37,210 nt of DNA from positions 1 through 37,210 of IMG/VR virus record IMGVR_UViG_3300021091_000193; one strand, written 5' to 3'. The DNA is from a virus. A model generated the notes under the pieces. That model searched no databases. It was not told the origin of the DNA and saw nothing but the letters and a program-made list of their open reading frames with translations. This document shows positions 3,942 to 35,303 of the stretch, one piece after another (positions within the stretch are counted from its first letter, which is position 1; every line of letters starts with the position of its first letter). Made by a program: the position numbers and the translations under genes.

Positions 3942-3970
3942 TTTACAAAGACTCAATAATATAGTACAGT
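3942..3970 (+). promoter_or_regulatory. Promoter abutting the gp43 start codon (leaderless)
   Basis: TTTACA at 3942-3947, a 17-nt spacer and TACAGT at 3965-3970, followed by 6 nt and the gp43 ATG at 3977. The predicted transcription start coincides with the ATG. There is no Shine-Dalgarno sequence before the ATG. A 6-bp inverted repeat, TCTTTG (3927-3932) and CAAAGA (3946-3951), overlaps the -35 element and could be an operator, although it is weak. Confidence 0.65.
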
Positions 3971-3976
3971 CATAAT

Positions 3977-6538
3977 ATGAACTTTTATACTAGTGCTATT
4001 GAGAACCGCGGTCAGATTCTGTTACGTGGATATGAGAACGGTCGGCAATTCACTCGCAAAGTGAAATACGAACCCACATTATTTGTTTCTAACAATAAGC
4101 CCGATTCTCCCTGGAAGTCTATTCATGGTAAGCCTCTTGCGCCAATGGTCTTCCCATCAATATATGACGCAAAGGAATTCTTAAAGAAATACGAGAACGT
4201 AACGAACTTTGAGATATGTGGGTTAACCCGTTTCGTATACGCATATCTCAATGAAGAATACTTAGGAGAAGTTCGATATGATCGCGAACTGATTCGAGTA
4301 GTCAACATCGATATCGAGGTCGCATCGAACAATGGCTTTCCGTCCGTTGACGCCGCGACCCAAGAAATCACAGCCATCACACTTAAAAAAAATAATATAT
4401 TTTACGTATTTGGTTGTGGCGTATTCAATACGAATAGAGCAGATGTTAAGTATGTTCGCTGTAAGAACGAGCGCGAACTTCTATTGGCATTCATTGCGGA
4501 GTGGAGTCGAGGTGGATATCCTGACGCAGTGACTGGTTGGAATATTGCGTACTTTGATATTCCATACATTATCAATCGAATGAAGCATATATTTGAACAG
4601 TCTACAATTGAGCAGCTATCTCCATGGAAAGCCTTTAGTAGTCGCGTCGTTAAAATAAACGGACGCGAAAACACCACAATTTCTATTTTGGGTGTAGCCA
4701 CTCTCGACTATCTCGAAATGTACCGTAAATTTACGTACACTCAGCAAGAATCATATCGTCTGGATGATATAGCGCAAATCGAGTTGGGTGATCAAAAGCT
4801 TGACTATTCGGAATATGAAACTCTACATGAATTATATGAGAAGAACTTTCAAAAATTCATAGAGTATAATATCCATGACGTTGATATTGTCGATCGGCTA
4901 GACGACAAGATGAAGCTGATTGATATGGTACTCACTCTAGCATATGATGCGAAAGTCAATTATGAAGATGTATTTTCGCAAGTACGCATGTGGGATGTCC
5001 TAATTCACAATCATTTGTGGGCCAAGAATATCGCGGTACCGCCCAACAAGGAATATAAAAAAGACGCGGCGTATACGGGAGGCCACGTTAAGTTTCCTAA
5101 GATCGGTATGCACGATTGGATTGTCTCGTTCGATTTGAATTCGCTATATCCTCATTTGATCATGCAGTTCAATGTCGGACCTGACACTATATCAGGACTT
5201 GGTTCTCCGGGCACGGCAATCAAGGATATTGATATTAGTATAGATGATCTTCTAGATGAGAATAAAGAGCTACCGATCATCGAGGGCCATAGCCTAGCGG
5301 CTAATGGCGTCTATTTCTCAAACGAGAAGCGTAGCTTTTTAGCTGAAATGTTGCAACGTCTATATGAAGATCGTGCGCGATATAAAATTAAAATGATTGA
5401 AGCGCAGAAAGCATATGAAACTGAGATCGATAACAAGAAGAAGCGTGAGCTAATTAAGAACATATCTCGGTATAAGAATATGCAGATGGCCAAGAAAATT
5501 CAATTGAATAGTAGCTATGGTGCTATCGGCAATCCACATTTTAGATATTTCGATTTGCGACTGGCTATGGCGATTACTCTAGGCGGGCAGCTAGCTATTC
5601 GTTGGGCCGAGAATGGCATAAATAAATATATGAATACGCTATTAGGAACACAGTCATATGACTACGTTATTGCGGCGGATACAGATTCTCTATATATCGA
5701 CTTTAGTGGGCTGGTACGTAAGGTCTTTAAAGATCCAAGCGCTGTATCAAAGGCTCGCGTGGTCTCCTTTCTGGATGATGTGGCTAGAGAAAAGTTTAAA
5801 CCGCTTATCGATTTACTGTATAAGAATCTTGCTATTCGAACAAATTCGTTCCAACAAAAAATGAACATGACCCGCGAGTCTATTGCGGATCGAGGACTAT
5901 GGACAGCCAAGAAGCGATACATTCTAAACGTATACGACTCCGAGGGCGTGCGCTACAACGAGCCTAAGTTAAAGATCATGGGCATCGAAGCCGTGAAATC
6001 ATCTACGCCAAAATCATGTAGATCAGCCATTAAGACTGCCATAAATATCATTATGACTGGCACGCAAGAATCATTGCATGAATATATTATTCAATTTCGC
6101 AAGAAGTTTAATACTTTACGATTTGAGGACATTGCGTTTCCGCGCGGAATAAATTCGGAGTTATATAAACAAGACGGCGGCGGCGATCAAGCTCAGCGGC
6201 AACTTCCCGGACAATCTCCTTCTCGCGATACTGTTCCCATTCACGTTCGCGGCGCTCTATTATTCAATAAGAGTATTAAGAGTCTTAACTTGACGCGCAA
6301 ATATGAGTTAATCAAAAGTGGAGAGAAGATTAAATTCTGCTATCTTCTTCTTCCCAATCCCATGAATGATAATGTAATTTCAATTTTATCCACGTTACCC
6401 AAAGAATTTAATCTAGATAAATATATCGACTATGACACACAATTCGACAAGGCTTTTCTAGGCCCAATGCGTACTATTCTCAATGCAATCAAGTGGTCAG
6501 AAGAAAAGAGAAACACAGTTGAGGACTTCTTCGCATGA
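3977..6538 (+). CDS. 43: Replicative DNA polymerase gp43 (family B)
   Basis: 853 residues; T4 gp43 has 898. Exonuclease motifs: ExoI IDIEVA (D112, E114, the same numbers as in T4), ExoII GWNIAYFDIPYI (D194) and ExoIII YNIHDVDIV (D301). Polymerase motifs: A FDLNSLYPHLIM (D386), B KKIQLNSSYGAIGNP (about 506-520) and C AADTDSLYID (D568, D570). All catalytic residues are present, so proofreading and synthesis should be active. It would work with gp44/62 and clamp gp45. A promoter ends 6 nt before the ATG and there is no ribosome-binding site, so translation looks leaderless. T4 gp43 represses its own translation through a leader hairpin, which would not be available on such an mRNA. Confidence 0.98.
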   Translation: MNFYTSAIENRGQILLRGYENGRQFTRKVKYEPTLFVSNNKPDSPWKSIHGKPLAPMVFPSIYDAKEFLKKYENVTNFEICGLTRFVYAYLNEEYLGEVRYDRELIRVVNIDIEVASNNGFPSVDAATQEITAITLKKNNIFYVFGCGVFNTNRADVKYVRCKNERELLLAFIAEWSRGGYPDAVTGWNIAYFDIPYIINRMKHIFEQSTIEQLSPWKAFSSRVVKINGRENTTISILGVATLDYLEMYRKFTYTQQESYRLDDIAQIELGDQKLDYSEYETLHELYEKNFQKFIEYNIHDVDIVDRLDDKMKLIDMVLTLAYDAKVNYEDVFSQVRMWDVLIHNHLWAKNIAVPPNKEYKKDAAYTGGHVKFPKIGMHDWIVSFDLNSLYPHLIMQFNVGPDTISGLGSPGTAIKDIDISIDDLLDENKELPIIEGHSLAANGVYFSNEKRSFLAEMLQRLYEDRARYKIKMIEAQKAYETEIDNKKKRELIKNISRYKNMQMAKKIQLNSSYGAIGNPHFRYFDLRLAMAITLGGQLAIRWAENGINKYMNTLLGTQSYDYVIAADTDSLYIDFSGLVRKVFKDPSAVSKARVVSFLDDVAREKFKPLIDLLYKNLAIRTNSFQQKMNMTRESIADRGLWTAKKRYILNVYDSEGVRYNEPKLKIMGIEAVKSSTPKSCRSAIKTAINIIMTGTQESLHEYIIQFRKKFNTLRFEDIAFPRGINSELYKQDGGGDQAQRQLPGQSPSRDTVPIHVRGALLFNKSIKSLNLTRKYELIKSGEKIKFCYLLLPNPMNDNVISILSTLPKEFNLDKYIDYDTQFDKAFLGPMRTILNAIKWSEEKRNTVEDFFA

Positions 6539-6915
6539 CTGCATCTACAATAGTAATTCCCGCAGAATACCAGGCCTTCGATTATGGATTTTCCGGAGTA
6601 GATTCGCCTGAAGTTAGAGTCGAAGTACCTGTAGCAGTTTCTCCTGGCTCTCCGGCACTTGAAGATAAAATTGACGATCTAAAAAGCAAGATCGATGTCC
6701 TGTCGAAGCTCATGTATCGACTTGAAGAAACAGATAATGAAAATACAAATGAAGCTGAGCTACGCGACAAGATTCGTATGCTAGAAGCCATTACTGTACC
6801 TCTCCTTAATAATCTTCTTAAGACAGCAGATAAGGATTATATTTATTGGCCTAATCGTGGACCTACCATCGAGAAACAGTTACAGAAGGTTCTTGAAATT
6901 ACTCGCGGCAAATGA
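6535..6915 (+). CDS. Conserved T4-family coiled-coil protein
   Basis: 126 residues, overlapping the gp43 stop by ATGA. After a Pro/Val-rich N-terminus, residues about 43-95 form a predicted coiled coil (LEDKIDDLKSKIDVLSKLM...). The C-terminal motif YIYWPNRGPTIEKQLQKVLE is one I recognise as recurrent in small T4-like phage proteins of unknown function. It is probably cotranslated with the polymerase and with the downstream membrane protein, whose ATG overlaps its stop. I cannot assign a function. Confidence 0.65.
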   Translation: MTASTIVIPAEYQAFDYGFSGVDSPEVRVEVPVAVSPGSPALEDKIDDLKSKIDVLSKLMYRLEETDNENTNEAELRDKIRMLEAITVPLLNNLLKTADKDYIYWPNRGPTIEKQLQKVLEITRGK

Positions 6916-7793
6916 AAAACAAATCTTCAATTGAGATAGACGGAGTATTGGCACTGTCAGCAGGTATAGCGATATCCGCGATCTCTGCATGGTATTCTAT
7001 AATAGGGCTTACCGCTATATTTGCTGGTGCGTTTTGGTCTATCGTAATCATGGGCGCCACGTTAGAAGTGGGTAAAATAATTACGGTGACCTATCTCTAT
7101 CGAAACTGGAAATCATTATCAGTATTCATAACAGCGTATTTTATATCGGCCGCAGTGATTCTAATGGCCATAACGAGCATGGGCACATTTGGATATTTAA
7201 GTAGGGCTCATATTGAACATACATCTGGCTCACAAAATATAGTTGCGAAATTAGAACGTATAGATCAGATGATTGCCCGCGAACGCGAGCGCATAGTTCG
7301 TACTGAGCGAGTACTATTCCAGCTTGACGCGAGTATCAACAGTCTGATTGAACAGAAATATGTGGTAGCAGGATTAGAGGCTAGACGCAAACAAGAAGGT
7401 GAGCGTAAGGATATAGCCGAAAGAATTAGAGAATATCAGATCACTATCGATAAGCTTACGGACGAAAAGATGCCTCTACAGCAATCGCTGCGGGATACTC
7501 AGCGAGAAATTGGACCTATTCGATATGTCGCTGAATTGATATATGGATCAAGCGATACTGAATTAATGGAAAGATCAATTCGAGGAATCATCATATTGTT
7601 GGTTCTCGTGCTTGATCCTCTAGCCATATTGCTAATTATGGTATCGACACGTAGATCAATTCCAGTCGTGGCCATGTCCAAGATTAAATATAACAGGTGG
7701 CTTAGAGAAAACGCAAACGCCGTAGAGACAGATGGAAAAGAATGGAACAATGTGGGCGTGGTAATTAGGAAAAAACAACTTTACAATGAATAG
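6912..7793 (+). CDS. Membrane protein with central coiled coil
   Basis: 293 residues. Hydrophobic segments lie near residues 10-30, 32-52, 64-88 and 225-245. Between them, residues about 110-210 form a charged coiled coil (ERERIVRTERVLFQLDASIN..., RREQEG-like heptads). The topology resembles DUF4407-type proteins, and similar proteins occur in T4-like marine phages. The motif MGTFGYLSRAHIEHTSG between the third membrane segment and the coil is probably conserved. The ATG overlaps the preceding stop. It is likely inserted in the inner membrane. Function unknown; a link to replication at the membrane or to lysis control cannot be tested here. Confidence 0.65.
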   Translation: MKNKSSIEIDGVLALSAGIAISAISAWYSIIGLTAIFAGAFWSIVIMGATLEVGKIITVTYLYRNWKSLSVFITAYFISAAVILMAITSMGTFGYLSRAHIEHTSGSQNIVAKLERIDQMIARERERIVRTERVLFQLDASINSLIEQKYVVAGLEARRKQEGERKDIAERIREYQITIDKLTDEKMPLQQSLRDTQREIGPIRYVAELIYGSSDTELMERSIRGIIILLVLVLDPLAILLIMVSTRRSIPVVAMSKIKYNRWLRENANAVETDGKEWNNVGVVIRKKQLYNE

Positions 7794-7808
7794 TAATTGC
7801 GCTATACT
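7780..7808 (+). promoter_or_regulatory. Early promoter ahead of a small ORF and uvsX
   Basis: TTTACA at 7780-7785, a 17-nt spacer and TATACT at 7803-7808. The predicted start is near 7815, leaving a leader of about 10 nt that still contains AGGAG (7814-7818). It lies at the very end of the membrane-protein gene and would drive the 56-residue ORF and then uvsX. Confidence 0.75.
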
Positions 7809-7824
7809 AAACTAGGAGTGAGAG

Positions 7825-7995
7825 ATGAATACCGTCGTTATGATAATAATGATATATGTGGGCAATAGTGTTGATTGGCACATAGTGCCATATAGCAGCT
7901 ATGCCCAGTGTCATAAATCTCTGGAATATCCAATGACGATTAGTGAACAATCCATGCGCTGGTGCATGGATTCTGAATATCTATACAGAAAGTAA
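7825..7995 (+). CDS. Small protein of 56 residues upstream of uvsX
   Basis: This ORF is short but has a strong promoter and AGGAG 6 nt before its ATG. The product begins MNTVVMIIMIYVGNSVDWHI and ends SEYLYRK. It has a short hydrophobic N-terminal stretch and Cys/Trp residues (C29, W46, C47). It ends 6 nt before the UvsX ATG, which has no good ribosome site of its own, so coupling is likely. No recognised family. It could act as a leader peptide that sets UvsX level. Confidence 0.65.
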   Translation: MNTVVMIIMIYVGNSVDWHIVPYSSYAQCHKSLEYPMTISEQSMRWCMDSEYLYRK

Positions 7996-8001
7996 TTTAT
8001 T

Positions 8002-9069: not shown

Positions 9070-9106
9070 TGCTAGTCACTAGTGAGCAGCATATTAGGAT
9101 AAAGAC

Positions 9107-9322
9107 ATGACATGGGATTGGGATTTTTATAACTTACTCACATCTACTATTGTCGGTATAGGTCTTTTGATGTGTGGAGCTATGCTCGGAAAAAATTATT
9201 GGATGAATAAAGGTGCGATGCGAGCATTGGAAATTCTTATTACACAAGGATATGCTCGATATCGTATTGTAAACGGGGAATATGAACTAATTAAGCTTGA
9301 CATTGCAGATAAATTGGACTAA
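9107..9322 (+). CDS. Small single-pass membrane protein
   Basis: 71 residues. One hydrophobic segment (about residues 9-27, LLTSTIVGIGLLMCGAMLG) is followed by a soluble tail that includes GYARYRIVNGEYELIKLD. AGGATAAAGAC precedes the ATG. The 3' end of the gene contains the -35 element and spacer of the gp41 promoter. No family recognised; similar small membrane proteins are common between T4-type replication genes. Its location suggests early expression. Confidence 0.6.
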   Translation: MTWDWDFYNLLTSTIVGIGLLMCGAMLGKNYWMNKGAMRALEILITQGYARYRIVNGEYELIKLDIADKLD

Positions 9323-9325
9323 TAT
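9297..9325 (+). promoter_or_regulatory. Promoter abutting the gp41 start codon (leaderless)
   Basis: TTGACA at 9297-9302, a 17-nt spacer and TAATAT at 9320-9325 (4 of 6 in the -10), then 6 nt and ATG at 9332. The -35 and spacer lie inside the preceding gene. The predicted transcription start falls on the A of the gp41 ATG, and no Shine-Dalgarno sequence is present. Confidence 0.6.
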
Positions 9326-9331
9326 TATTAA

Positions 9332-10750
9332 ATGCGTATTGAACAAACTATTCTTCGTCATCTCATGCATGACGATGTTTATGCTCGTAAGGTCATTCCT
9401 TTTTTAAAGAGCGAATACTTTAATAGCGCGCCAGAGCAATTGATATTTGACAAGATCAATGCATTCATACTAAAGTACAATACCATACCGACATGTGAGG
9501 CTTTACATATTCAGATCGAGGAACAGACTGGATTAAGTGAGGATACACATAAGCAGGCCAGTTCTATTCTGATAGAACTAAAGCAGAAGCCAGAAAAAAC
9601 AAACGTAGACTGGCTTCGTGATAGCACAGAAAAGTTCTGCCAGGATCGTGCCCTCCATAATGCCATTATGGATAGCATCACCATTCTGGATGGTAGAAAT
9701 AAGTTGCACACAAAAGAACATCTACCCGAAATATTGAAGACGGCGTTGGCCGTATCATTCGATTCGCATATTGGTCATGACTTTCTTGACGATTACTCAG
9801 AACGATATGATTTCTATCATCGCGTAGAGGAAAAGATACCGTTCGATCTTGAGCTTATGAATAAGATTACCTATGGAGGATTATCCAAGAAATCTCTGAA
9901 CATTATATTGGCAGGTACTGGCGTAGGTAAATCTTTGGCTATGTGTCATATGGCCGCGGCCAATCTCACTATAGGCAAGAAGGTATTATATATTACGCTA
10001 GAAATGTCCGAAGAGAAGATTGCCGAGCGTATCGATGCAAATCTACTAAATGTGTTAATATCGGAGCTGAATACTCTACCAAGAGACTCATACGAAAAGA
10101 AGATATCTCGTATACGTGACAAGACTGTAGGTAAGCTTATCATCAAAGAGTATCCTACCGCAAGCGCACATGTCGGGCATTTTCGCCATTTGTTGAATGA
10201 GCTAAATCTAAAGCGTGAATTCATTCCCGATATCATATATGTCGATTATCTAAATATCTGTATGTCCTCGCGTATAAAGCAGGGCTCAAATATAAATAGC
10301 TATACATATATCAAGTCTATTGCAGAGGAACTAAGAGGTCTAGCCGTCGAACGAAATGTACCAATCATGAGCGCAACACAAACGACTAGATCTGGCTTTG
10401 GATCATCTGACCCTGGGCTTGAGGATACATCTGAGTCTTTCGGGTTACCGGCCACCGCCGACTTTATGGTGGCATTGATTGCGACTGAAGAACTGGAAGA
10501 CCTTAATCAAATAATGGTCAAACAATTGAAAAATCGTTATGCTGATCCCACGACTAATCGACGGTTTGTGATTGGTGTAGACAAAGCACGAATGAAGCTA
10601 TATGATCTAGAAGATGATGCACAGAAAGATATACATGATATTCCGATCATGGACAAAACCACATTTGGAGAAAGGCGAAAAGAAGAAGAAACAATGAAAT
10701 GGACAACAAAGAAGATGGGCCGTAAAGATTTTTCGAGCCTAAAGGTGTAA
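9332..10750 (+). CDS. 41: Replicative DNA helicase gp41 (DnaB family)
   Basis: 472 residues. Walker A ILAGTGVGKS lies at about 192-201, followed by the DnaB-type motifs YITLEMSEEKIAERIDANLL, Walker B IIYVDYLNIC and MSATQTTRSG. The N-terminal about 150 residues form the helical domain. T4 gp41 is a hexameric 5'-3' helicase that moves on the lagging-strand template and binds primase gp61, also in this window. The start lies exactly at a predicted transcription start, without a ribosome site. Length is close to T4 gp41 (475). Confidence 0.96.
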   Translation: MRIEQTILRHLMHDDVYARKVIPFLKSEYFNSAPEQLIFDKINAFILKYNTIPTCEALHIQIEEQTGLSEDTHKQASSILIELKQKPEKTNVDWLRDSTEKFCQDRALHNAIMDSITILDGRNKLHTKEHLPEILKTALAVSFDSHIGHDFLDDYSERYDFYHRVEEKIPFDLELMNKITYGGLSKKSLNIILAGTGVGKSLAMCHMAAANLTIGKKVLYITLEMSEEKIAERIDANLLNVLISELNTLPRDSYEKKISRIRDKTVGKLIIKEYPTASAHVGHFRHLLNELNLKREFIPDIIYVDYLNICMSSRIKQGSNINSYTYIKSIAEELRGLAVERNVPIMSATQTTRSGFGSSDPGLEDTSESFGLPATADFMVALIATEELEDLNQIMVKQLKNRYADPTTNRRFVIGVDKARMKLYDLEDDAQKDIHDIPIMDKTTFGERRKEEETMKWTTKKMGRKDFSSLKV

Positions 10751-10751
10751 T

Positions 10752-10964: not shown

Positions 10965-11024
10965 GCGGACTCCGCTTAATCCTCGAGCCGGTGCTTCCAA
11001 AAAGTCAATATAAGACTAAAGCTT

Positions 11025-12139: not shown

Positions 12140-12153
12140 CGTCTGATAAGAGT

Positions 12154-20096: not shown

Positions 20097-20719
20097 TGTC
20101 TGGGTTTGTAGTAGATATCTTTATGGTGTATCAGTTCATAAAACGACTGGTAACACCATTTGATCAGACGCCCGCATATAAACTCGGATTGATCGACTCC
20201 GAAGGTAAGAGGCTTCGCAAAGCGCAGACAGCCGAAGAAAAACGAGCTTTAGGATATTTCGATAGACTAGTATTTAATCTCAAACGACTACTGGGTGGTT
20301 TGCCAGGAGGCAAAACTACTTTGGCTTCATACGCGGCCGCTCTGCTTCTTCTTCGCGAAGAAGATGAGCGTCTAATTACCGATGATGAATATCTACTAGA
20401 AGAATTTCGTAAAGTAATTGACAACATCGATATGACCGCGTATAATAAACTCATGGAAGATGCTCCCGCAAATATGACTGGCGCAAGTGTAGTCGGAACT
20501 GGTGATAATATAGTTCATTGGTCTAAGCGGCAGCCTAAGCTTGGCGACAAGGGTAAGATAAAGAAATACGGGCAGGCCATGGACGGAGTATTGTATTTGC
20601 GTCGTCGAAAGAATGAACAGATTCGTCTTGAAAAGAAAAATATGGTTTTTTATAAGATGCTTGGGCGAAAAGTTCTAGCCAGCAAAAGCTCATCTTCAGC
20701 AGGCGATAATGGAGAATGA
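20096..20719 (+). CDS. Conserved T4-family protein with an internal promoter
   Basis: 207 residues. Residues about 10-90 hold the family pattern FIKRLVTPFDQTPAYKLGLI, then EKRALGYFDRLVFNLKRLLG and ASYAAALLLL, common in T4-like phages of marine bacteria; function unknown. The C-terminus is basic (LRRRKNEQIRLEKKN). Inside the gene, TTGACA-N17-TATAAT at 20418-20446 is followed 6 nt later by an in-frame ATG at 20453 (MEDAPANM), which could yield an 88-residue C-terminal isoform. The full gene starts at the TAATG overlap with the gene before it. Confidence 0.7.
   Translation: MSGFVVDIFMVYQFIKRLVTPFDQTPAYKLGLIDSEGKRLRKAQTAEEKRALGYFDRLVFNLKRLLGGLPGGKTTLASYAAALLLLREEDERLITDDEYLLEEFRKVIDNIDMTAYNKLMEDAPANMTGASVVGTGDNIVHWSKRQPKLGDKGKIKKYGQAMDGVLYLRRRKNEQIRLEKKNMVFYKMLGRKVLASKSSSSAGDNGE
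20418..20446 (+). promoter_or_regulatory. Perfect consensus promoter inside the 20096 gene
   Basis: TTGACA (20418-20423), exactly 17 nt, TATAAT (20441-20446), then 6 nt and an in-frame ATG at 20453. Same geometry as the promoters of gp43, gp41 and the deaminase gene. It would start a leaderless mRNA for a short isoform, and also transcribe 20722. Confidence 0.6.
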
Positions 20720-21169: not shown

Positions 21170-21198
21170 TTGACATTCAGTCATCGTCATGATATTAT
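21170..21198 (+). promoter_or_regulatory. Promoter abutting the gp61 start codon (leaderless)
   Basis: TTGACA (21170-21175), 17 nt, TATTAT (21193-21198), 5 nt and ATG at 21204; the mRNA would begin at or next to the ATG. An inverted repeat GTCAT-N6-ATGAC (21186-21201) covers the -10 element and may be an operator. No Shine-Dalgarno sequence. Confidence 0.7.
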
Positions 21199-21203
21199 GA
21201 CGT

Positions 21204-22226
21204 ATGCTCTGGATTGATCACAAATACGTAGGCCTAATATGTAATAGGCTACCTAAATTTAAGAAGAAAAGTGATAAATTATATAATTTTCGCTGTGTCT
21301 TTTGTGGCGATTCCCAGAAAGACAAGAACAAAGCTCGAGGCTATTTGTATGTGCATAAAGATCGAATCGCATACAAATGTCACAATTGCAATATATCCAC
21401 TTCTCTCTACAAGTTACTGAATCATCTTGATCCATCTCTGGGTAATGCATATAAGCTTGAGCAGTTTTCAAATTCAAACAACCATTCAACTTTCGTGCAT
21501 AAGCTATCGGCAGTATTAGAGAATAAACAAAAAATAGAGCCGCCCGAAAGTAATATACTGATCGATTTGGGTCTGATTCCCGCACATCTACTTGCGGAGG
21601 ACCATAGGATTGTTAGTTATTTACAATCTCGTAAAATACCACGCTCTCGCTGGGCAGATTTGTATTATGCTCACGATATGCGGGTTCTTGAGAAGCTTAA
21701 TAAAAGCTATGAAAACCGATTAATATCGGAAGAGCGTATGGTAATTCCATTTCGTGATATGGCAGGTAATATCACCGGCGTAACTGGGCGCGCCATCGGA
21801 AATAATAAGTTGCGATATGTTACGGTGCGTGTAACCGATGACGTTATGATCTATGGCTTAAATATTCTTGATTTATCTCGGACGATCTATGTAACTGAGG
21901 GTCCAATAGATAGCATGTTTGTGGATAATGCGATTGCGGCGGGCGGATCTGACTTCAAGCGCGCTGTAATGCAATTCGATAGAAATAAAATTATTCTTAT
22001 ATTCGATAATCAGCCAAGAAATAAACAACTTGTTGATATCATGAATCGGATGATAGCACAGGACTATAAGATGGTCATATGGCCTTCGAATTGGCGGTAT
22101 AAAGATATTAATGAATCGATTATCGACGGAGTAACTTCCTCGGCACTAATGCAGACACTGCATACACATAGTCACCAACATCTTAATCTAAAACTTGCAA
22201 TGAGGGAATGGAATAAATGCCGGTGA
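21204..22226 (+). CDS. 61: DNA primase gp61
   Basis: 340 residues, T4 gp61 has 342. An N-terminal zinc finger CVFC...YKCHNC (C31, C34, C59, C62) recognises the template, and a TOPRIM-like region IYVTEGPIDSMFVDNAIAAGG carries the metal-binding catalytic site. VTGRAIGNNKLRYV lies between. gp61 makes short RNA primers and works with helicase gp41 (9332). The gene begins at a predicted transcription start, without a leader. The stop overlaps the thyX start. Confidence 0.93.
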   Translation: MLWIDHKYVGLICNRLPKFKKKSDKLYNFRCVFCGDSQKDKNKARGYLYVHKDRIAYKCHNCNISTSLYKLLNHLDPSLGNAYKLEQFSNSNNHSTFVHKLSAVLENKQKIEPPESNILIDLGLIPAHLLAEDHRIVSYLQSRKIPRSRWADLYYAHDMRVLEKLNKSYENRLISEERMVIPFRDMAGNITGVTGRAIGNNKLRYVTVRVTDDVMIYGLNILDLSRTIYVTEGPIDSMFVDNAIAAGGSDFKRAVMQFDRNKIILIFDNQPRNKQLVDIMNRMIAQDYKMVIWPSNWRYKDINESIIDGVTSSALMQTLHTHSHQHLNLKLAMREWNKCR

Positions 22227-28284: not shown

Positions 28285-29246
28285 ATATTTTGATTTTGCA
28301 GCCTCGAATGGACGTGGCTTTCAAGGAAGGAATAGTGTCTGATGTGCGCGGCCCGATTCCTCCAATTCGACAGCACTGGCTCAAGTTTGTAGAAATGTGT
28401 GCGAATGAGCATCGGCGCCGTAAGGATAATGTCACGATTCTAGAATTACCACTATGGCAATTTACGCCCGACATGGTAGTAAAGCTTAACCCAGATGTGG
28501 TATATGTTCCTCATCGTGAAAAACATAGCTTTACTGTGCCGTCGAAAAAGATTCGCGTCTTGTATTATATGCAATCAGTCTTTCCGTGGATATTCTATGT
28601 CGATCCTCTAGGATTTGCTGGCGGCGCCAGCATCTATCCAATGGATATAAAGAGCGGTAATAGTCGATCTTCTCGATTTGATGTCTTACGAAAGTACGTG
28701 CATACCGGAGCCAGTAAATTCGAACAGCCTCCGACTAGAGGATTTGATGAAACCGATTATGTTCTATTTCTATGTCAATTACCTCATGATCAGACTATTC
28801 TGTATCATTCGGACGTAACCGTGGAACAGGCCCTACAAGAAACATGTGAAGTTACAAAAAAACTCAACGTGCGTCTGATCGTGAAAGGGCATCCTGTTAA
28901 TCCGGGTAGCATGATGGGATTAAAATCATTATGTGCTAAATACACTCATTCGGAATGGTATGACAACATATCAATACACGATCTAATACCTAATGCGCGA
29001 GTGGTTGTTGTAGTAAACTCTGGAACAGGTATGGAAAGTCTATTATATCTAAGACCTGTTGTGACTTATGGACGATGTGAATATGATGCGGTTACCATGA
29101 AAGTAAAATTAAACGATAATTTAGAGCAATGCATTACTAATCCTACAATAAATAAGAAAAATGTTAGGAAATTCTTTGATAGATGGAGTTCCCTAACTTA
29201 CGATACGACGAATGCTATGGGATTTAAACACTTGGGAGTACAATAA
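28281..29246 (+). CDS. Capsule-synthesis type (KpsS-like) GT-B glycosyltransferase
   Basis: 321 residues. RLIVKGHPVNPGSM followed by SIHDLIPNARVVVVVNSGTG and MESLLYLRPVVTYGRCEYD matches the capsule polysaccharide (KpsC/KpsS) family in which HP and an NSGTGxE motif bind CMP-Kdo. The family adds beta-Kdo to lipid for capsule or other glycans. It is unusual in a phage. ATG overlaps the preceding stop by ATGA, making a four-gene block with the methyltransferase and two GTs. Acceptor unknown; could be host surface glycan or a virion glycan. Confidence 0.7.
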   Translation: MNILILQPRMDVAFKEGIVSDVRGPIPPIRQHWLKFVEMCANEHRRRKDNVTILELPLWQFTPDMVVKLNPDVVYVPHREKHSFTVPSKKIRVLYYMQSVFPWIFYVDPLGFAGGASIYPMDIKSGNSRSSRFDVLRKYVHTGASKFEQPPTRGFDETDYVLFLCQLPHDQTILYHSDVTVEQALQETCEVTKKLNVRLIVKGHPVNPGSMMGLKSLCAKYTHSEWYDNISIHDLIPNARVVVVVNSGTGMESLLYLRPVVTYGRCEYDAVTMKVKLNDNLEQCITNPTINKKNVRKFFDRWSSLTYDTTNAMGFKHLGVQ

Positions 29247-29247
29247 A

Positions 29248-29604
29248 ATGGCAAAACACTGGGGCTATCATCTAATCGTTGACGCGGCTAGTTGCGATAT
29301 ATCGAAAATTACGAATGCTGATCATATTGCTAATTTTGCGCGTGAGTTAGTCAAACGTATCGATATGGTAGCTTATGGCGAACCTCAAATTGTTAACTTC
29401 GGTTCAGGTAACAAGGCCGGCTTTACGTTGGTGCAGCTAATCGAAACCAGTAATATTGTGGCTCATTTCTGCAACGATTCGGGCGATGCATATCTGGACG
29501 TATTCTCCTGTAAGAGTTTTAGCATGGACACCGTGATGGATGTATTTGATGAATACTTTAATCCCATGACAATGCGTCCAAATTTCATGACGAGGCAGGC
29601 CTAA
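29248..29604 (+). CDS. speD: S-adenosylmethionine decarboxylase-like protein (SpeD)
   Basis: 118 residues; GGGAG (29234-29238) precedes the ATG. Residues HWGYHLIVDAASC, YGEPQIVNFGSG and LIETSNIVAHF...LDVFSC match the bacterial SpeD fold. The catalytic residues are in register with T. maritima SpeD: S68 (pyruvoyl-forming), H73 (Ser+5) and C88 (Ser+20). The residue before the cleavage Ser is Thr rather than the usual Glu. Decarboxylated SAM feeds spermidine synthesis, which could help DNA packing. Activity is plausible but unproven. Followed by the first hairpin-promoter module. Confidence 0.85.
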   Translation: MAKHWGYHLIVDAASCDISKITNADHIANFARELVKRIDMVAYGEPQIVNFGSGNKAGFTLVQLIETSNIVAHFCNDSGDAYLDVFSCKSFSMDTVMDVFDEYFNPMTMRPNFMTRQA

Positions 29605-29612
29605 ATCATTAC

Positions 29613-29697
29613 GTAATATTATTGCTTACGCTATCTCGACAAAACAATAATATTACCAAAGATTTTGCTAGACAAACGCCATACGGTACGTTATAAT
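29613..29697 (+). repeat. Hairpin-plus-promoter module, copy A
   Basis: GTAATATTATTG (29613-29624) and CAATAATATTAC (29645-29656) form a perfect 12-bp stem with a 20-nt loop. Then GATTTTGC, TAGACA (29669-29674), 17 nt and TATAAT (29692-29697). Copies B and C share the stem, the GATTT(T)..TAGACA block and spacing. It lies right after a stop codon and before a new gene set, in the manner of PeSL cassettes of T4-type phages. Confidence 0.75.
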
Positions 29698-29766
29698 CAT
29701 ATTTGATGAATAATGTGCTTAGACCGATAGGATTTTTCATAAACATCAGGATATCTAGACTGATCT

Positions 29767-30108: not shown

Positions 30109-30120
30109 AAGTGAAATAAC

Positions 30121-30504
30121 ATGACAATGCATCTTGTTGGTCCACATATGACCACGACTAATTATAAGAAGCGTCGAAATATCAGGTTCAAGAGCGCAGC
30201 CCAAAAAGCTAGATATATGGTCGAGCAAAAGGCATTGGCTCAGCTACATATGAAGTACAACGTAGGAAAGAAGATATCGATTCAGCCTGTAAAATATAGC
30301 GCCGACTTTTCTGCAAACCATAATCCGACTGCTGAAATTCCCTCACATTCAAAATATGGCATTACATCGGGCGCGTGCGCCAAACCAGAGCCTAAGACCT
30401 ATACGGGAAATAAGTTGATCGGCATTGCTACGATGCACAAAAGTAACATGGTTCCCGTATTTAATCATGATGACGCCAAAGAAATTGCAAAAATGCGTCG
30501 ATAA
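30121..30504 (+). CDS. Conserved phage protein of unknown function
   Basis: 127 residues. The N-terminus MTMHLVGPHMTTTNYKKRR is basic, and the C-terminus TYTGNKLIGIATMHKSNMVP followed by VFNHDDAKEIAKMRR is a strongly conserved pattern in diverse phages, of unknown role. No catalytic motif. The gap after its stop (30505-30560) shows no clear promoter. Confidence 0.7.
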   Translation: MTMHLVGPHMTTTNYKKRRNIRFKSAAQKARYMVEQKALAQLHMKYNVGKKISIQPVKYSADFSANHNPTAEIPSHSKYGITSGACAKPEPKTYTGNKLIGIATMHKSNMVPVFNHDDAKEIAKMRR

Positions 30505-30560
30505 TACCGCCATAGCTTGCGCTATATACGAGTTGATGGTTCTAACAGAATAGGAATGTA

Positions 30561-31250
30561 ATGATGGACACACACTTTCAATTCCCGACGGTCGATGACA
30601 TTAATAGTAGCATGGTACGCGTGTATAACCACATGGCATCAGGCGTGGCTATATCCGGTGCTGTTTCGTGGATAATCTCGCAGAATTTAGAGCTAATGGC
30701 GATATTATTCAAGACATGGTTAATGTGGCCAGTGATTCTATTGCCTCTGGGTTTTGTTCTCGTTATGAGTTTTGGTGCAGAAAAACTAAGTGCGAAAACT
30801 CTTGGTGTATTGTTCTATTTGTATTCAGTAGCCAGTGGTGCTAGTCTCGCGACTATTTTTGCAATATATACCGCCGATTCGCTCATCACTGCGTTTTTTG
30901 TAAGTTCTGCATTATTTCTTTCGATGAGCGCGTATGGGTATTTCACTAAACGAAGCCTAGAAAGTTTCGGACAATTTCTAATCGTCGGTCTTATTGGTAT
31001 TTGTTTGGCTGCTATTGTGAATATATTTCTACAAAATAGCATGATGCAAATGCTTATTAGCATACTGGCGGTGATCATTTTCACAGGGCTTACTGCCTAT
31101 GATACACAACGCATTCGTATCCAGATTTATTCGGGCAAGGGAGATTACGACAGAGCTGAGATTATGGGGGCGCTAACACTATATCTAGACTTTATTAACA
31201 TCTTCATTCATCTTCTACAGATATTCGGTGACCGTAAATCCGACGACTAA
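30561..31250 (+). CDS. Bax inhibitor-1/YccA-like integral membrane protein
   Basis: 229 residues with about seven hydrophobic segments and the family signature FTGLTAYDTQRI plus GALTLYLDFINIFIHLLQIF near the C-terminus. The charge pattern of the loops (DYDRAEIMG) fits BI-1/YccA. Bacterial YccA binds and modulates the membrane protease FtsH. AGGAATGTA precedes the ATG at 30561; ATG 30564 is a close alternative. Whether it acts on FtsH in the host is an inference. It is in the accessory region. Confidence 0.9.
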   Translation: MMDTHFQFPTVDDINSSMVRVYNHMASGVAISGAVSWIISQNLELMAILFKTWLMWPVILLPLGFVLVMSFGAEKLSAKTLGVLFYLYSVASGASLATIFAIYTADSLITAFFVSSALFLSMSAYGYFTKRSLESFGQFLIVGLIGICLAAIVNIFLQNSMMQMLISILAVIIFTGLTAYDTQRIRIQIYSGKGDYDRAEIMGALTLYLDFINIFIHLLQIFGDRKSDD

Positions 31251-31259
31251 ATTAATATC

Positions 31260-31288
31260 TTGACAACGGAGTAAAAATTATGTAATGT
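31260..31288 (+). promoter_or_regulatory. Probable promoter for the outer-membrane protein
   Basis: TTGACA (31260-31265), 17 nt, TAATGT (31283-31288). The -35 is perfect, the -10 is poor (3 of 6). The leader of about 50 nt contains AAAGGAA before the ATG at 31345. Confidence 0.45.
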
Positions 31289-31344
31289 ACATATACGTAA
31301 CTTATCTACCGACACTCAATTGAAACAATCAAAGGAATATTAAT

Positions 31345-31824
31345 ATGAAGAATATTTTTGCACTCGCCGCCGCCTCTCTCGTCATGATGACGACTTTCGA
31401 TGCTGCGGCACAGGAAGTACGCTCGTCATCATACGTTTATGCTGGTCCGACGGTTGGCGCTGCGCTTAATCAGGGCGCGCTTGCTATTGGCGCTCTTGGT
31501 GGCTATCAGGTCAATCGATATGTGCGTGGCGAAGCGAACTTCGACCATGTAGTTAGTACACAGCCATACTCGTCCAAGTACCTTACTGGTAACGTAATTG
31601 TTCAGTATCCTATTTCGGGTCTTAGGGTGACACCCTACGCGCTGACTGGTCTAGGTTATCAGTGGCAGAATGGCCTTAATCAGGGCGTCTGGAATGTTGG
31701 CGGAGGTATGCGAACTGCGGTTACTCCAAACACAGACCTTGATCTTCGCTATCGTTACCTTCAGGGCATGACTAATCAGGCAAACGAGAATGTCGTAACC
31801 ATGGGTACTACATTCAGGTTCTAA
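31345..31824 (+). CDS. Outer-membrane beta-barrel protein
   Basis: 159 residues. A signal peptide MKNIFALAAASLVMMTTFDA with a cleavage site near AAAQ-EV (about residue 23) precedes alternating strands of aromatic and hydrophobic residues (YVYAGPTVGAAL, ITPYALTGLGYQWQ-like). It ends in MGTTFRF, with the terminal Phe that BAM recognises. It resembles small OmpA/OmpX-like 8-stranded barrels. AAAGGAATATT precedes the ATG. A perfect terminator follows, so it is a single-gene unit. Phage-encoded outer-membrane proteins can block superinfection; that is an inference. Confidence 0.85.
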   Translation: MKNIFALAAASLVMMTTFDAAAQEVRSSSYVYAGPTVGAALNQGALAIGALGGYQVNRYVRGEANFDHVVSTQPYSSKYLTGNVIVQYPISGLRVTPYALTGLGYQWQNGLNQGVWNVGGGMRTAVTPNTDLDLRYRYLQGMTNQANENVVTMGTTFRF

Positions 31825-31830
31825 TCTATG

Positions 31831-31867
31831 AACTGTCAGATAGGTTTATGATCTATCTGACAGTTTT
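31831..31867 (+). terminator. Rho-independent terminator after the outer-membrane gene
   Basis: AACTGTCAGATAG (31831-31843) and CTATCTGACAGTT (31853-31865) form a perfect 13-bp stem with a 9-nt loop, followed by TTTC. The T-run is short, but the stem is strong. Confidence 0.8.
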
Positions 31868-31917
31868 CATGTGGTCTATGAAATATAAGGCGACAGCTTA
31901 CGTACTAAGAACTATAT

Positions 31918-31994
31918 GGGCTCGTAGTTCAGTTGGTCAGAACGAGCCGCTCATAACGGTTATGTCGCAGGTTCGAGTCCTGCCGGGCCTACCA
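31918..31994 (+). tRNA. tRNA with anticodon CAU (Met or Ile2)
   Basis: 77 nt with encoded CCA. Acceptor GGGCTCG with CGGGCCT (G-U at 1-72), D-arm GTTC/GAAC, anticodon stem AGCCG/CGGTT around the loop CTCATAA, and T-arm GCAGG/CCTGC. Anticodon CAU could be elongator Met or Ile2 (lysidine-modified, reading AUA); C4-G69 is compatible with the latter. The phage genes use ATA often, so an AUA-reading tRNA would fit. Confidence 0.95.
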
Positions 31995-32044
31995 ATACGG
32001 TAAAATGTGAAGATGATAGTTTATGTGAGACTCTGTAGGAATCA

Positions 32045-33466
32045 ATGAAGAGCATTATTAAAGAATCCACAGTATACGATAATTGCATGGATCTCAAGGC
32101 TACAGAGTCGATGCCGACTGTAGCCAATTTCATCGATGATCCAACTTTTGCCAATCAGACACCGAAGTACAAATCGACGATCAAAAATATTGGCGGCGCT
32201 TATAAGTCAATCTATGTCAGCTTTCGCACCAAAGAAGACTTGCGAGAATTTGCCAATCTTATTAAGCAAGACGTATTGATCGATGAGATTTGGTATCCAG
32301 AATCCAGATCATTACTATTCGATAGTACTGATAAGGTTAGTGAGTATAAGTTTCTAGATAAGGACGCTATACCCAAGAAACCTAAGAAGAAACTGAAGCC
32401 TAACGCCGATAGTAAGTGGCGCAAGCTTTGGACAGGCATGCCTGAGTACGAGCAGGAAGACTGTGAGCCGTATCATAAAATTGATATGCGGTTTTATGAT
32501 AAAGCTGGATACATTGCGTTTGCGAAGATTGTTCAGCAAAATCTATCTGAAAACACCAGCAGCATTTGGTATCCTAAGCTAGATCGTGACGCCAACGCAA
32601 AGAAGCGGTGGGTAGAATCCAATGGTAATCACACCAACCCACAGTATCCACTCTATATCGTATCGAAGGGTCGTGCTGATAGTCGATTGACGGCACGATC
32701 ACTTGAACGTATGCAGGTACCATATTATATTGCTATTGAGCCACAAGACTATGAGTCCTATGCGGCCGTCATCGACCCCGCGAAGATTTTGGTACTGCCG
32801 TTCTCCAATCATGGCGATGGCCCGGGCCGTGCGCGTAACTGGTGTTGGGATCATGCTATCGCCCTAGGGGCAAAGCGCCACTGGGTGCTAGATGATAATA
32901 TCTCCGACTTCTATCGATTGCACCAGAACTTTCGTATTCGCACAGAGAGTGGTGCTATCTTTCGCGCAGCCGAAGACTTTGTAGATAGATTTGAAAATGT
33001 GCCTATCTCTGGTTTTCAGTATCGATTCTTCATTGCACCCAATGGCAAATATCCTGCATTTGTGACAAACACTCGCATTTATTCGGTGTTATTGATTGAT
33101 AACACCTGTAAGTTTAGATGGCGCGGTAGATACAATGAAGATACCGATATCTGTCTCCGCGTATTGAAAGCTGGGCAATGTACCATCCAGTTCAACGCAT
33201 TTTTGCAGGGCAAGGCCGCAACGCAGACACTCGGTGGTGGTAATACCGCAGAGTTCTATGCGGCTGAGGGCACTGATCCTAAGTCTCATATGCTCTATCA
33301 GATGCATCCAGACGTTACAACAAAGGTCATTCGGTATGGCCGCGAACATCATTATGTTGATTACAATCAGTTTAAAAAGAATAAATTGATCATGAAGCCG
33401 AACATTTCGATTCCAGTAGGCATCAATAACTACGGTATGGAATTGATTACTGACTTTAAGGGCTGA
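32045..33466 (+). CDS. TET-associated glycosyltransferase (TAGT-like)
   Basis: 473 residues. Residues about 200-473 match the TAGT pattern: YPLYIVSKGRADSRLTARSL, VPYYIAIEPQDYESYAAVID and PAKILVLPFSNHGDGPGRAR, then HWVLDDNISDFYRLH, RWRGRYNEDTDICLRVLKAG and LGGGNTAEFYAAEG. TAGTs glycosylate 5-hydroxymethylpyrimidines in DNA, usually with a TET/JBP oxygenase, which is not in this window. Residues about 25-190 contain two copies of a W-x2-MP/WYPE-like module (SIYVSFRTKEDLREFANLIK...IWYPE and KIDMRFYDKAGYIAFAKIVQ...IWYPK). AGGAATC precedes the ATG. DNA hypermodification is inferred. Confidence 0.85.
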   Translation: MKSIIKESTVYDNCMDLKATESMPTVANFIDDPTFANQTPKYKSTIKNIGGAYKSIYVSFRTKEDLREFANLIKQDVLIDEIWYPESRSLLFDSTDKVSEYKFLDKDAIPKKPKKKLKPNADSKWRKLWTGMPEYEQEDCEPYHKIDMRFYDKAGYIAFAKIVQQNLSENTSSIWYPKLDRDANAKKRWVESNGNHTNPQYPLYIVSKGRADSRLTARSLERMQVPYYIAIEPQDYESYAAVIDPAKILVLPFSNHGDGPGRARNWCWDHAIALGAKRHWVLDDNISDFYRLHQNFRIRTESGAIFRAAEDFVDRFENVPISGFQYRFFIAPNGKYPAFVTNTRIYSVLLIDNTCKFRWRGRYNEDTDICLRVLKAGQCTIQFNAFLQGKAATQTLGGGNTAEFYAAEGTDPKSHMLYQMHPDVTTKVIRYGREHHYVDYNQFKKNKLIMKPNISIPVGINNYGMELITDFKG

Positions 33467-33467
33467 T

Positions 33468-33548
33468 GTGGCAAAAAATAATGCTCTTGATGAATATCTA
33501 AATCTATGTGCTAAATTTTGCGATGAAGAGTTGATCATAATAATTTAA
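33468..33548 (+). CDS. Possible small ORF (26 residues), low confidence
   Basis: GTG 33468 lies 1 nt after the TAGT gene stop. Product MAKNNALDEYLNLCAKFCDE then ELIIII has two Cys and a hydrophobic C-terminus. No ribosome site beyond the coupled stop. Could be a translational tail or noise. Confidence 0.25.
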   Translation: MAKNNALDEYLNLCAKFCDEELIIII

Positions 33549-33577
33549 CATCTTGGATTTAGTCAAGACCGATATTT

Positions 33578-33664
33578 CAATAATATTATTGTGTGTGCTG
33601 CCCAAACAAAGTAACAATATTATCAGCGATTTCACTAGACAATCGTGTCTGATCATGTTACAGT
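33578..33664 (+). repeat. Hairpin-plus-promoter module, copy B (variant stem)
   Basis: The left arm CAATAATATTATTG (33578-33591) is a 14-bp palindrome in itself. The right arm AACAATATTATC is 3 nt shorter, so the stem has a bulge. Then GATTTCAC, TAGACA (33636-33641), 17 nt and TACAGT (33659-33664). It would transcribe the tRNA at 33724. A separate TATAAT at 33710-33715 without a good -35 is also near the tRNA start. Confidence 0.65.
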
Positions 33665-33723
33665 GAGTGAACATTTATGATCTTCGGCACCAATTCAAAT
33701 TAGGGATAGTATAATTTACTAAT

Positions 33724-33815
33724 CGGCGTGACACCGGGATGGTGGGGAGGCCCTTATAAAGCCTTTAGCAGTGGACGACTGTTTCTTGTGGGTTCGAATC
33801 CCACCGCGCCGACCA
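33724..33815 (+). tRNA. Unusual tRNA-like gene with long variable arm, anticodon probably UAU
   Basis: 92 nt with encoded CCA. Acceptor CGGCGTG/CGCGCCG (with one G-U) and T-arm GTGGG-TTCGAAT-CCCAC are intact. The D-arm CACC-GGGAT-GGTG has a loop of only 5 nt and lacks the usual GG. Stem AGGCC/AGCCT has a C-A mismatch at 31-39, loop CTTATAA. The variable arm (AGCAGT-GGACG-ACTGTT) is class II length. Anticodon UAU would read AUA (Ile), which is odd for a class II tRNA. It may be a novel type or a decaying gene. Confidence 0.6.
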
Positions 33816-33844
33816 AATTTTAACTCTTTACTCGGTAAAGTATT

Positions 33845-33946
33845 ATGAAATATAAACTCCTAATCAAATCCGGTAATGAGCACCGAGGCGGTGAGCGCGG
33901 CTTACATATACGGCGAAGTATGAAAAACAAAGAAGTAAAATTATGA
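33845..33946 (+). CDS. Possible small basic peptide, 33 residues
   Basis: ATG 33845 follows the tRNA; product MKYKLLIKSGNEHRGGERGL then HIRRSMKNKEVKL, basic. Its stop overlaps the next ATG (ATGA), suggesting coupling. GGTAAAG might serve as ribosome site, and a hairpin CTTTAC-TCG-GTAAAG (33826-33840) just upstream may trim the tRNA 3' end or shield this site. Confidence 0.35.
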   Translation: MKYKLLIKSGNEHRGGERGLHIRRSMKNKEVKL

Positions 33947-34509
33947 AAATTTATATGGGTCCCTATAGGAGTTTGTATATTAGCCCATACATGTTGACTG
34001 ACTGTCTAAAGATATTTGGCGTATCGGAAGAACGTCGCGACACAATCGCAGTATATTTATGCGACACTTGGGTAAACACTTTCTGTGAGTGGGTGATGGC
34101 CCGCTCTATATTCAAGCGAAGAATTAAGATTAGAATCGATCATTATGATATCTGGAATATGGACGAGACTATTTATAGTATCGTTCATCCCATGCTGATT
34201 CAATTAAAGTTAAAAAAATGTGGAGCTCCTTATGTAAAAGATTCGGATGTTCCCGAGCATCTTCGTTCGACCGCAGCTCCAGCTAAAAAGAACGAGTGGG
34301 ATATTGATGATTATCATTTCGATAGATTCAATTGGATATTGGATGAAATGATCTGGGCGTTCGATACTGATGCACGAAACAAAGAGGAAGATATTTATTT
34401 TTCCATTCTCCCAGAAGAGCGCGGAAGAGAGTTACTGGAAATCATGCAGGATCGTAAACAGAATGCTAATCGCCTATTCGGAGTATATCTATCTTCTTTA
34501 TGGGATTGA
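33943..34509 (+). CDS. Conserved phage protein of unknown function
   Basis: 188 residues. MKIYMGPYRSLYISPYMLTD, FKRRIKIRIDHYDIWNMDET, HPMLIQLKLKKCGAPYV, VPEHLRSTAA and WILDEMIWAFDTDARN are landmarks of a family seen in many dsDNA phages. The function is unknown. The family's pattern (RxKIRID.YDxWxMDxT, then PMLxQLKxxKxGxPxVxDxDVPExLRST) is complete, so the gene should be intact. Co-translation with the small ORF before it (ATGA) is likely. Confidence 0.75.
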   Translation: MKIYMGPYRSLYISPYMLTDCLKIFGVSEERRDTIAVYLCDTWVNTFCEWVMARSIFKRRIKIRIDHYDIWNMDETIYSIVHPMLIQLKLKKCGAPYVKDSDVPEHLRSTAAPAKKNEWDIDDYHFDRFNWILDEMIWAFDTDARNKEEDIYFSILPEERGRELLEIMQDRKQNANRLFGVYLSSLWD

Positions 34510-34543
34510 TAGTTTACAATTTTAGCAATAAGTCAACCATGGC

Positions 34544-34572
34544 TTGACAATATGACTATGACTGTGTATAAT
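34544..34572 (+). promoter_or_regulatory. Perfect promoter abutting the deaminase start codon (leaderless)
   Basis: TTGACA (34544-34549), 17 nt, TATAAT (34567-34572), 6 nt and ATG at 34579. Perfect consensus with the predicted start on the A of the ATG, and no Shine-Dalgarno sequence. It is one of the two clearest examples of the pattern. Confidence 0.85.
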
Positions 34573-34578
34573 AATAAT

Positions 34579-34974
34579 ATGAAGCTTCATCAAGACTATG
34601 TAATTTCTATTGCCAAATCGGCTAATGCGTCTGGATACCATTTTGGTGCCGTTATATTTGATCGGCGGAGTGTGATATCTACCGGATGGTGCCAGAAAAA
34701 GACTCATCCACGGCAAGCCCGCTATATGATGCGCTGGGCTCATTCATATAAGCGCAACAATACTTGGCTACACGCCGAAATGCACTCTCTTATTTGTGCG
34801 CGGACGGATGTTACGGGTTGCGATATGATCGTGGCTCGGTGGGCTGCCAATAGGATCAGGGCCAGTCACCCGTGTATGGCGTGCTGGCAGGCCATAACCG
34901 TAGCCGGTATTCGTAGAGTGTGGTATTGGTCAGAACATGATAATGCCTGGGTATATCGCAACGTAAATCAGTAG
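34579..34974 (+). CDS. Cytidine/deoxycytidylate deaminase-like protein
   Basis: 131 residues, starting at ATG 34579 where the promoter geometry predicts the mRNA end; an in-frame ATG at 34552 lies within the promoter. Zinc motif H65-A-E67 (TWLHAEMHSL) and P-C99-x2-C102 (HPCMACWQAI) give the deaminase site. The family converts dCMP to dUMP or similar. With ThyX it would supply dTMP. T4 Cd is longer (193 residues). Substrate (dCMP, cytidine or other) is not certain. Copy C of the hairpin-promoter module follows. Confidence 0.85.
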   Translation: MKLHQDYVISIAKSANASGYHFGAVIFDRRSVISTGWCQKKTHPRQARYMMRWAHSYKRNNTWLHAEMHSLICARTDVTGCDMIVARWAANRIRASHPCMACWQAITVAGIRRVWYWSEHDNAWVYRNVNQ

Positions 34975-34975
34975 A

Positions 34976-35060
34976 GTAATATTATTGCTCATAATACCTT
35001 AACAAAGCAATAATATTACCGTCGATTTTGGTAGACAAATGCCCTAAGCTATGTTAGGAT
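34976..35060 (+). repeat. Hairpin-plus-promoter module, copy C
   Basis: GTAATATTATTGCT (34976-34989) and AGCAATAATATTAC (35006-35019) form a perfect 14-bp stem with a 16-nt loop. CGTCGATTTTGG, TAGACA (35032-35037), 17 nt, TAGGAT (35055-35060) and 6 nt to ATG 35067 follow. Closest in sequence to copy A. It starts 1 nt after the deaminase stop, so it could also serve as the end of that transcript. Confidence 0.8.
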
Positions 35061-35066
35061 TATAAT

Positions 35067-35303
35067 ATGATGAAACTTACACGAATGTCTAACAATGTCG
35101 CGGTTCTTGCATTACCTGAGGGTGTGGAAGTTCTTTTCTCGTATGATACTCCGATTGCGGCGTTTGTGCCGGGTCAGGGCTATATGATCACTAGCACCAA
35201 ATATAGTAAAACTACTACAAAGCATGGTAATTCTTGGGGACCAAAGGTAAAGACTATTGTGCCTCAGACAGTGATAGACCAGCTTATGAGTGTAAAGTCC
35301 TAA
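35067..35303 (+). CDS. Small conserved phage protein, 78 residues
   Basis: MMKLTRMSNNVAVLALPEGV then EVLFSYDTPIAAFVPGQGYM, with KYSKTTTKHGNSWG, is a short pattern shared by many phages (YF/SYxTPVAA...TTTKHxNxW). The function is unknown. The ATG lies at the predicted start of copy C's transcript, without a ribosome site, so it looks leaderless. Short beta-rich protein; no enzyme motif. Confidence 0.65.
   Translation: MMKLTRMSNNVAVLALPEGVEVLFSYDTPIAAFVPGQGYMITSTKYSKTTTKHGNSWGPKVKTIVPQTVIDQLMSVKS

Follow-up and report, generated by a model that had tools for sequence, protein, structure and literature searches.

The DNA analysed here, called the window below, is a 37,210-base viral fragment (IMG/VR record IMGVR_UViG_3300021091_000193) from a T4-like phage. 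It carries genes for gp62, RegA, IscU, an IscA/ErpA-type protein, Hsp20, gp43, UvsX and gp41, together with gp61, ThyX, ribonucleotide reductase and dCMP deaminase. Its gp43 stays below 50% identity to the isolate phages, the best being S-PM2 at 49.5%, and a nucleotide search of a phage collection with the first 25 kb returned no match. The subject of this work is a set of promoters that end almost on the start codon of the gene behind them. An earlier sequence-only reading had named five gene starts with a -35 and a -10 hexamer exactly 17 nucleotides (nt) apart and an ATG 5-6 nt further on, and all five were recovered at the positions it gave (Table 1). They precede the genes for the polymerase, the helicase, the primase and the deaminase, and a small open reading frame (ORF) driven by a repeated cassette.

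All sites display a TTGACA-like -35 at 17-nt spacing, and no MotA box was found at them. Taken by themselves, the -10 hexamers of gp43, gp41 and ORF 35067 are weak. In close relatives the gp43 -10 reads TATAGT or TATAAT, and most copies of the cassette carry TATAAT, with the spacing unchanged. The start of gp43 is well anchored, as the window protein aligns with S-PM2 gp43 from residue 1. The deaminase spacer contains an additional in-frame upstream ATG (34552).

Table 1. Promoters, genes and repeats of the window discussed in the text (SD, Shine-Dalgarno)
Feature	Coordinates	Strand	Details
RegA translational repressor homologue	486..932	+	PF01818, E 2.5e-41; phrog_242
hsp20 promoter	2810..2898	+	TTGACA (2810-2815), TATAGT (2833-2838); ATG 2844, SD-led start 2896
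gp43 promoter	3942..3979	+	TTTACA (3942-3947)-N17-TACAGT (3965-3970)-N6-ATG 3977
gp43, family B DNA polymerase	3977..6538	+	PF00136; start at predicted +1
gp41 promoter	9297..9334	+	TTGACA (9297-9302)-N17-TAATAT (9320-9325)-N6-ATG 9332
gp41, DnaB-like replicative helicase	9332..10750	+	
Perfect promoter-like match inside the 20096 gene	20418..20455	+	in-frame ATG 20453; judged a coding coincidence
gp61 promoter	21170..21206	+	TTGACA (21170-21175)-N17-TATTAT (21193-21198)-N5-ATG 21204
gp61, DNA primase	21204..22226	+	phrog_47
Second cassette copy	29613..29701	+	first ATG degenerate (TTG)
Third cassette copy	33580..33668	+	decayed, 62% identity
Deaminase promoter	34544..34581	+	TTGACA (34544-34549)-N17-TATAAT (34567-34572)-N6-ATG 34579
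dCMP deaminase	34579..34974	+	
Cassette copy	34976..35075	+	stem-loop GTAATATTATTGC..GCAATAATATTAC, TAGACA, TAGGAT, then ATGATGAA at 35067
ORF 35067 promoter	within cassette	+	TAGACA (35032-35037)-N17-TAGGAT (35055-35060)-N6-ATG 35067
ORF 35067, 78 amino acids, no assigned function, cassette-driven	35067..35303	+	phrog_5643

The arrangement is strongly enriched in the window. Under a strict rule (-35 with at most one mismatch to TTGACA, spacer 17, TANNNT, start codon 5-6 nt further on), 5 of 47 plausible gene starts pass, where a Markov null built on upstream sequence predicts 0.022; the resulting P of 3e-11 is optimistic, since the rule was set after the sites of the earlier reader were known. 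When the promoter is slid to other offsets, only 0-1 starts pass. Relatives offer an independent test, for which we used the pattern TTGACA-N16-18-TANNNT-N5-7-ATG and, as control, the same pattern reversed. Across 24 relative records, which are fragments and partly redundant, there are 80 matches and a single reversed one; without the three records that had been chosen for the pattern, 71 matches remain in 0.96 Mb, with about 1 reversed. Seven isolates (Syn9, S-PM2, P-SSM2, HTVC008M, T4, DSL-LC03 and S-CREM1) give 16 matches in 1.29 Mb and 4 reversed, and RB49, with 2 and 1, displays no AUG-fused enrichment. A looser test on open frames of 40 codons points the same way, with 8 observed against 1.3 expected in the window and 4-6 observed against 4-6 expected in Syn9, S-PM2, T4, DSL-LC03 and HTVC008M.

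The position of the transcription start (+1) leaves signatures of its own, which we read from 65 different sites whose -35 is exactly TTGACA. The spacer is 17 nt in 60 of them, and the distance from the -10 to the ATG is 6 nt in 50. A pyrimidine stands at -1 in 52 of the 65, compared to a background of 49% (P 6e-7), which matches a pyrimidine-purine start and so supports a +1 at the A of the AUG. An SD-like sequence lies upstream in only one site. Folding over the first 45 nt is weaker than at SD-led starts (-3.6 against -5.2 kcal/mol, P 3e-4), with slightly lower GC; in leaderless mRNAs of Caulobacter, too, the unstructured region is displaced to the 3' side of the AUG (PMC4117421). The A of the AUG is thus probably the +1 of the fused promoters.

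Uncultured T4-like relatives share the fused arrangement even where protein identity falls to 32-45%. At gp43 it reads TTTACA-N17-TATAAT-N6-ATG in relatives at 91%, TTGACA-N17-TATAGT-N6-ATG at 98% and TTGACA-N17-TACTAT-N5/6-ATG at 57-58%, where the spacers are unrelated. At gp41, relatives at 71% (L206, L214, L224) have TTGACA-N17-TAATAT or TATATT-N6-ATG with a diverged spacer, and in other clades gp41 overlaps the preceding gene. The gp61 site persists as TTGACA-N17-TATAAT-N6/7-ATG at 42-45% and as an extended -10 only, TGATATACT-N7-ATG, at 32-33%, while for the deaminase a 92% relative keeps the -35, the -10 and the N6 invariant around an altered spacer. When 71 polymerases are placed on a tree, one clade of 24 has leaderless gp43 in every member but one, and the layout occurs elsewhere as well. 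Well-supported branches of this tree force at least six label changes, indicating that the layout was gained or lost repeatedly. Most sister phages outside the leaderless set have no gp43 promoter at such a distance, and in annotated isolates gp43 overlaps or abuts the preceding gene (Syn9 and S-PM2 overlap). Four contigs (L164, L167, L169, L171) carry an ATG-fused gp43 promoter inside a clade otherwise without one, which looks like a recent gain and offers a natural comparison.

We consider it highly probable that these are sigma70-type promoters fused to pre-replicative and cassette genes, with the +1 on or near the A of the AUG, from which leaderless messages are predicted. Enrichment, conserved spacing and the signatures at the +1 lend strong support, at the level of sequence, to the promoter class first proposed for the five starts. 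Host RNA polymerase carrying the housekeeping sigma factor would bind the -35 and -10 just behind the upstream gene and, with the start codon about six nt after the -10, would initiate on the A of the AUG or within 1-2 nt of it. With a promoter so near the ATG, the mRNA should begin with the start codon, and translation without a ribosome-binding leader is expected: a host ribosome, probably an intact 70S, would begin at the 5'-terminal AUG without an SD sequence. The class would drive the polymerase, helicase and primase, in relatives also UvsY, an SbcD-like nuclease and gp62, and in addition the cassette genes.

The promoter of ORF 35067 sits in a repeated 100-bp cassette composed of an inverted repeat, CGTCGATTT and TAGACA-N17-TATAAT-N6-ATGATGAA. 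The window holds three copies, and relatives hold about eight (G024, IMGVR_UViG_3300005582_000027), three (G036) and two (G025), ahead of different or paralogous small ORFs. The cassette is a portable expression cassette for accessory genes. We regard it as an even call whether it is a recombination cassette of the PeSL type (a repeated stem-loop with a sigma70 promoter between accessory genes) that is unrelated to the promoters of the replication genes. The likeness is plain for the copies at 34976, 29613 and 33580, though for no other site, and PeSLs are known in T4-type phages according to work cited in PMC4503421. However, the N17/N6/ATG geometry equals that of the replication promoters, and the window-group cassette, unlike a PeSL, ends in ATGATGAA and so brings its own start codon, an arrangement for which RB49 lacks any enrichment.

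Besides the genes named above, relatives have peptide deformylase, a DNA methyltransferase and exonucleases behind fused promoters, and gp62 is the clamp-loader subunit. In a 139-kb relative (G005), 14 AUG promoters lie outside the 27-103 kb block with the portal, tail sheath and baseplate genes and none inside it, for which simple arithmetic on an even spread gives a chance near 1e-5. Most of the TATAAATA late-promoter motifs also fall in this block, where the coding strand has 11 and the opposite strand 0; SD-led starts follow several of them. This genome supports a split between pre-replicative genes and virion genes, the latter using late TATAAATA promoters and SD leaders. The division originally drawn, leaderless replication genes against SD-led others, survives in that form, but neither as a replication-only class nor with the SD-led genes cleanly apart: the ORF 35067 promoter belongs to an accessory-gene cassette, and peptide deformylase and DNA methyltransferase in relatives also weigh against a class confined to replication.

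Such a distribution bears on whether the fusion reflects compaction rather than regulation, where a promoter squeezed between two genes simply ends at the next start and hosts tolerate leaderless mRNA. We rate this as possible, somewhat short of even. At many sites the -35 follows closely behind the upstream stop codon, and most gp43 genes of the group are either leaderless or have no promoter of their own. Moreover, for 153 strong promoters from a general IMG/VR virome sample the distance to an ATG peaks at 6-7 nt and rises again from about 20 nt on, and Caulobacter translates 375 leaderless mRNAs as efficiently as leadered ones (PMC4117421). With this peak, the idea that 5'-AUG promoters are unique to the present group was rejected; leaderless genes are probably frequent among phages and reported too seldom. 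On the other hand, recurrence of the layout at the same replication genes in diverged phages and the empty virion block suggest functional sorting, and the cassette brings its own ATG.

Leaderless candidates are not alone in having an AUG where the transcript is predicted to begin. In the group of the window (group A), an AUG stands 5-7 nt after the -10 at 24 of 44 SD-led promoters, against 6.7% expected (nominal P 3e-17, overstated since orthologues occur among the 44). The window hsp20, listed as SD-led in the earlier reading, is among them: the ATG at its predicted 5' end opens a 26-codon frame ahead of the SD-led start. E. coli mRNAs with a 5'-terminal upstream AUG (5'-uAUG) and an SD sequence are bound by 70S ribosomes and can serve as both leaderless and leadered messages (PMC4965119); here, unlike in E. 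coli, the feature marks about half of the SD-led promoters of one phage group. A 5'-terminal AUG may hence be general to transcripts of the group, as a ribosome-loading aid or a preferred initial sequence, the true start often being a downstream SD-led AUG and the leaderless genes a coinciding subset. We hold this to be a less than probable reading, for the conserved N-termini of gp43, gp41 and gp61 begin at the fused AUG with no SD-led start after it, and 64 of the 65 leaderless-set sites lack an upstream SD. Homologous N-termini settle the start for these three proteins, not for the small ORFs. In four relatives (G005, G006, G008, G010) a 5'-AUG in frame with the SD-led start of UvsX opens a conserved peptide, MLKDWFFLRRG, upstream of that start (in G005 at position 219, - strand); the peptide would be either an N-terminal extension or a leader peptide.

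Both kinds of message could also be joined in one rule, adopted by a lineage of T4-like phages, by which sigma70 promoters are selected for AUG-first pre-replicative transcripts, the AUG being either the gene start or a ribosome-loading AUG before the SD. They would form a translational class apart from the SD-led late messages, free of the upstream sequences used by the T4 RegA and gp43 repressors. We offer this rule tentatively and think it rather unlikely.

Several observations count against the leaderless interpretation. Longer read-through transcripts from upstream genes may carry the fused-promoter genes too. The 24 SD-led promoters share the AUG position, and an AUG at +1 is thus by itself no proof of the start in use. 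Sites in related phages are only partly independent. Within the window, SD strength differs weakly between the two sets of starts (mean -1.5 vs -3.6 kcal/mol, P 0.07). The claimed lack of an SD sequence stands for four of the five ATGs, the fifth having a weak AGGA within its own -10, and the claim that other genes are SD-led holds in part, with 12 of 38 other starts binding the anti-SD beyond -4.5 kcal/mol. A clean dichotomy of SD-led and leaderless genes was therefore rejected, given this weak difference and the 5'-AUG on many SD-led promoters. That the genes are read from upstream operons, with the -35/-10/ATG matches as fossils or chance in AT-rich sequence, is very improbable: gp43 and gp41 do overlap upstream genes in several sister clades and some window hexamers are weak, but the P of 3e-11, the strand bias, the conserved spacing across diverged spacers and the near absence from known isolates all contradict it.

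The sequence-only reading had added a sixth site inside the 20096 gene. Its perfect consensus is present and is retained in relatives at 96%, but it is probably no start. In relatives at 68% (L530, L531) ATA replaces the ATG and a 12-nt insertion follows the -10, on which grounds an internal leaderless start was rejected; the hexamers persist there as the conserved codons I-D-N and Y-N.

Among known systems, the T4-like cyanophage Syn9 reportedly has host-like (sigma70) middle promoters, as described by Doron et al. in 2016. The window resembles it in that pre-replicative, T4-like replication genes are preceded by a host-type -35 and -10 with no MotA box and late genes have TATAAATA-type promoters; middle timing would be expected here too. 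In contrast, the Syn9 and S-PM2 genomes have no enrichment of -10-to-ATG distances at 5-7 nt. Thermus phages P23-45 and phiYS40 make leaderless transcripts, and they likewise have a temporal class with leaderless messages; theirs are experimental in a different phage group, host and promoter type, whereas ours are predicted. T4 middle promoters (MotA box and -10) serve replication, recombination and nucleotide metabolism (PMC2988021), a gene set in common with the fused class, in which a sigma70 -35 at 17 nt replaces the MotA box and the leader is predicted to be missing. Leaderless promoters of Deinococcus-Thermus, mycobacteria and Caulobacter have TANNNT close to the ORF and no SD (PMC12340547, PMC4117421). 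The fused promoters agree with them, the -10 lying about 6 nt before a start that lacks an SD, and differ in belonging to a T4-like phage, with a near-consensus -35 and a defined gene class. The literature searched held no description of AUG-fused promoters as a class in T4-like phages. Host-like middle promoters, leaderless messages (in several bacteria and some phages) and PeSLs are each known already.

In T4, replication genes are governed largely at the leader, by leadered MotA-dependent messages with RegA and gp43 repression (PMC2988021, PMC3014915). RegA binds an A+U-rich sequence overlapping the AUG or just 5' of it, and gp43 represses via an upstream hairpin (PMC3014915). A leaderless message would miss the 5' part of both target sites. 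The window encodes a RegA, as do relatives both with and without leaderless gp43, and a link between RegA absence and leaderless genes was rejected. If the leaderless interpretation is true, a T4-like group has dropped or rebuilt leader-level control of its replication genes, and 5'-AUG initiation serves as a temporal class. The fused geometry also offers a sequence rule to correct start codons and promoters in uncultured phage contigs, and gp43 genes of close relatives with and without the fused promoter provide natural pairs for tests of leaderless translation.

Other features of the window concern the host and the cargo of the phage. An IscU-type scaffold (NifU_N) adjoins the IscA/ErpA-type Fe-S protein (1902-2716); these are phage-borne Fe-S cluster assembly genes and give a pointer to the host. 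The IscU is closest to Alphaproteobacteria (80-85% identity) and psbA occurs in 0 of 13 group records; a cyanobacterial host was rejected on this basis, and the host assignment is a lead only. Unusual cargo near the nucleotide-metabolism genes includes an S-adenosylmethionine decarboxylase (29212-29604), a Bax1-I family membrane protein (30561-31250) and an OmpA-like beta-barrel (31345-31824). Finally, a perfect TTGACA-N16-TATAAT lies on the - strand at 14837-14809, directed antisense in the 14.65-14.9 kb intergenic region with no ATG within the next 20 nt, and possibly drives an antisense or small RNA.

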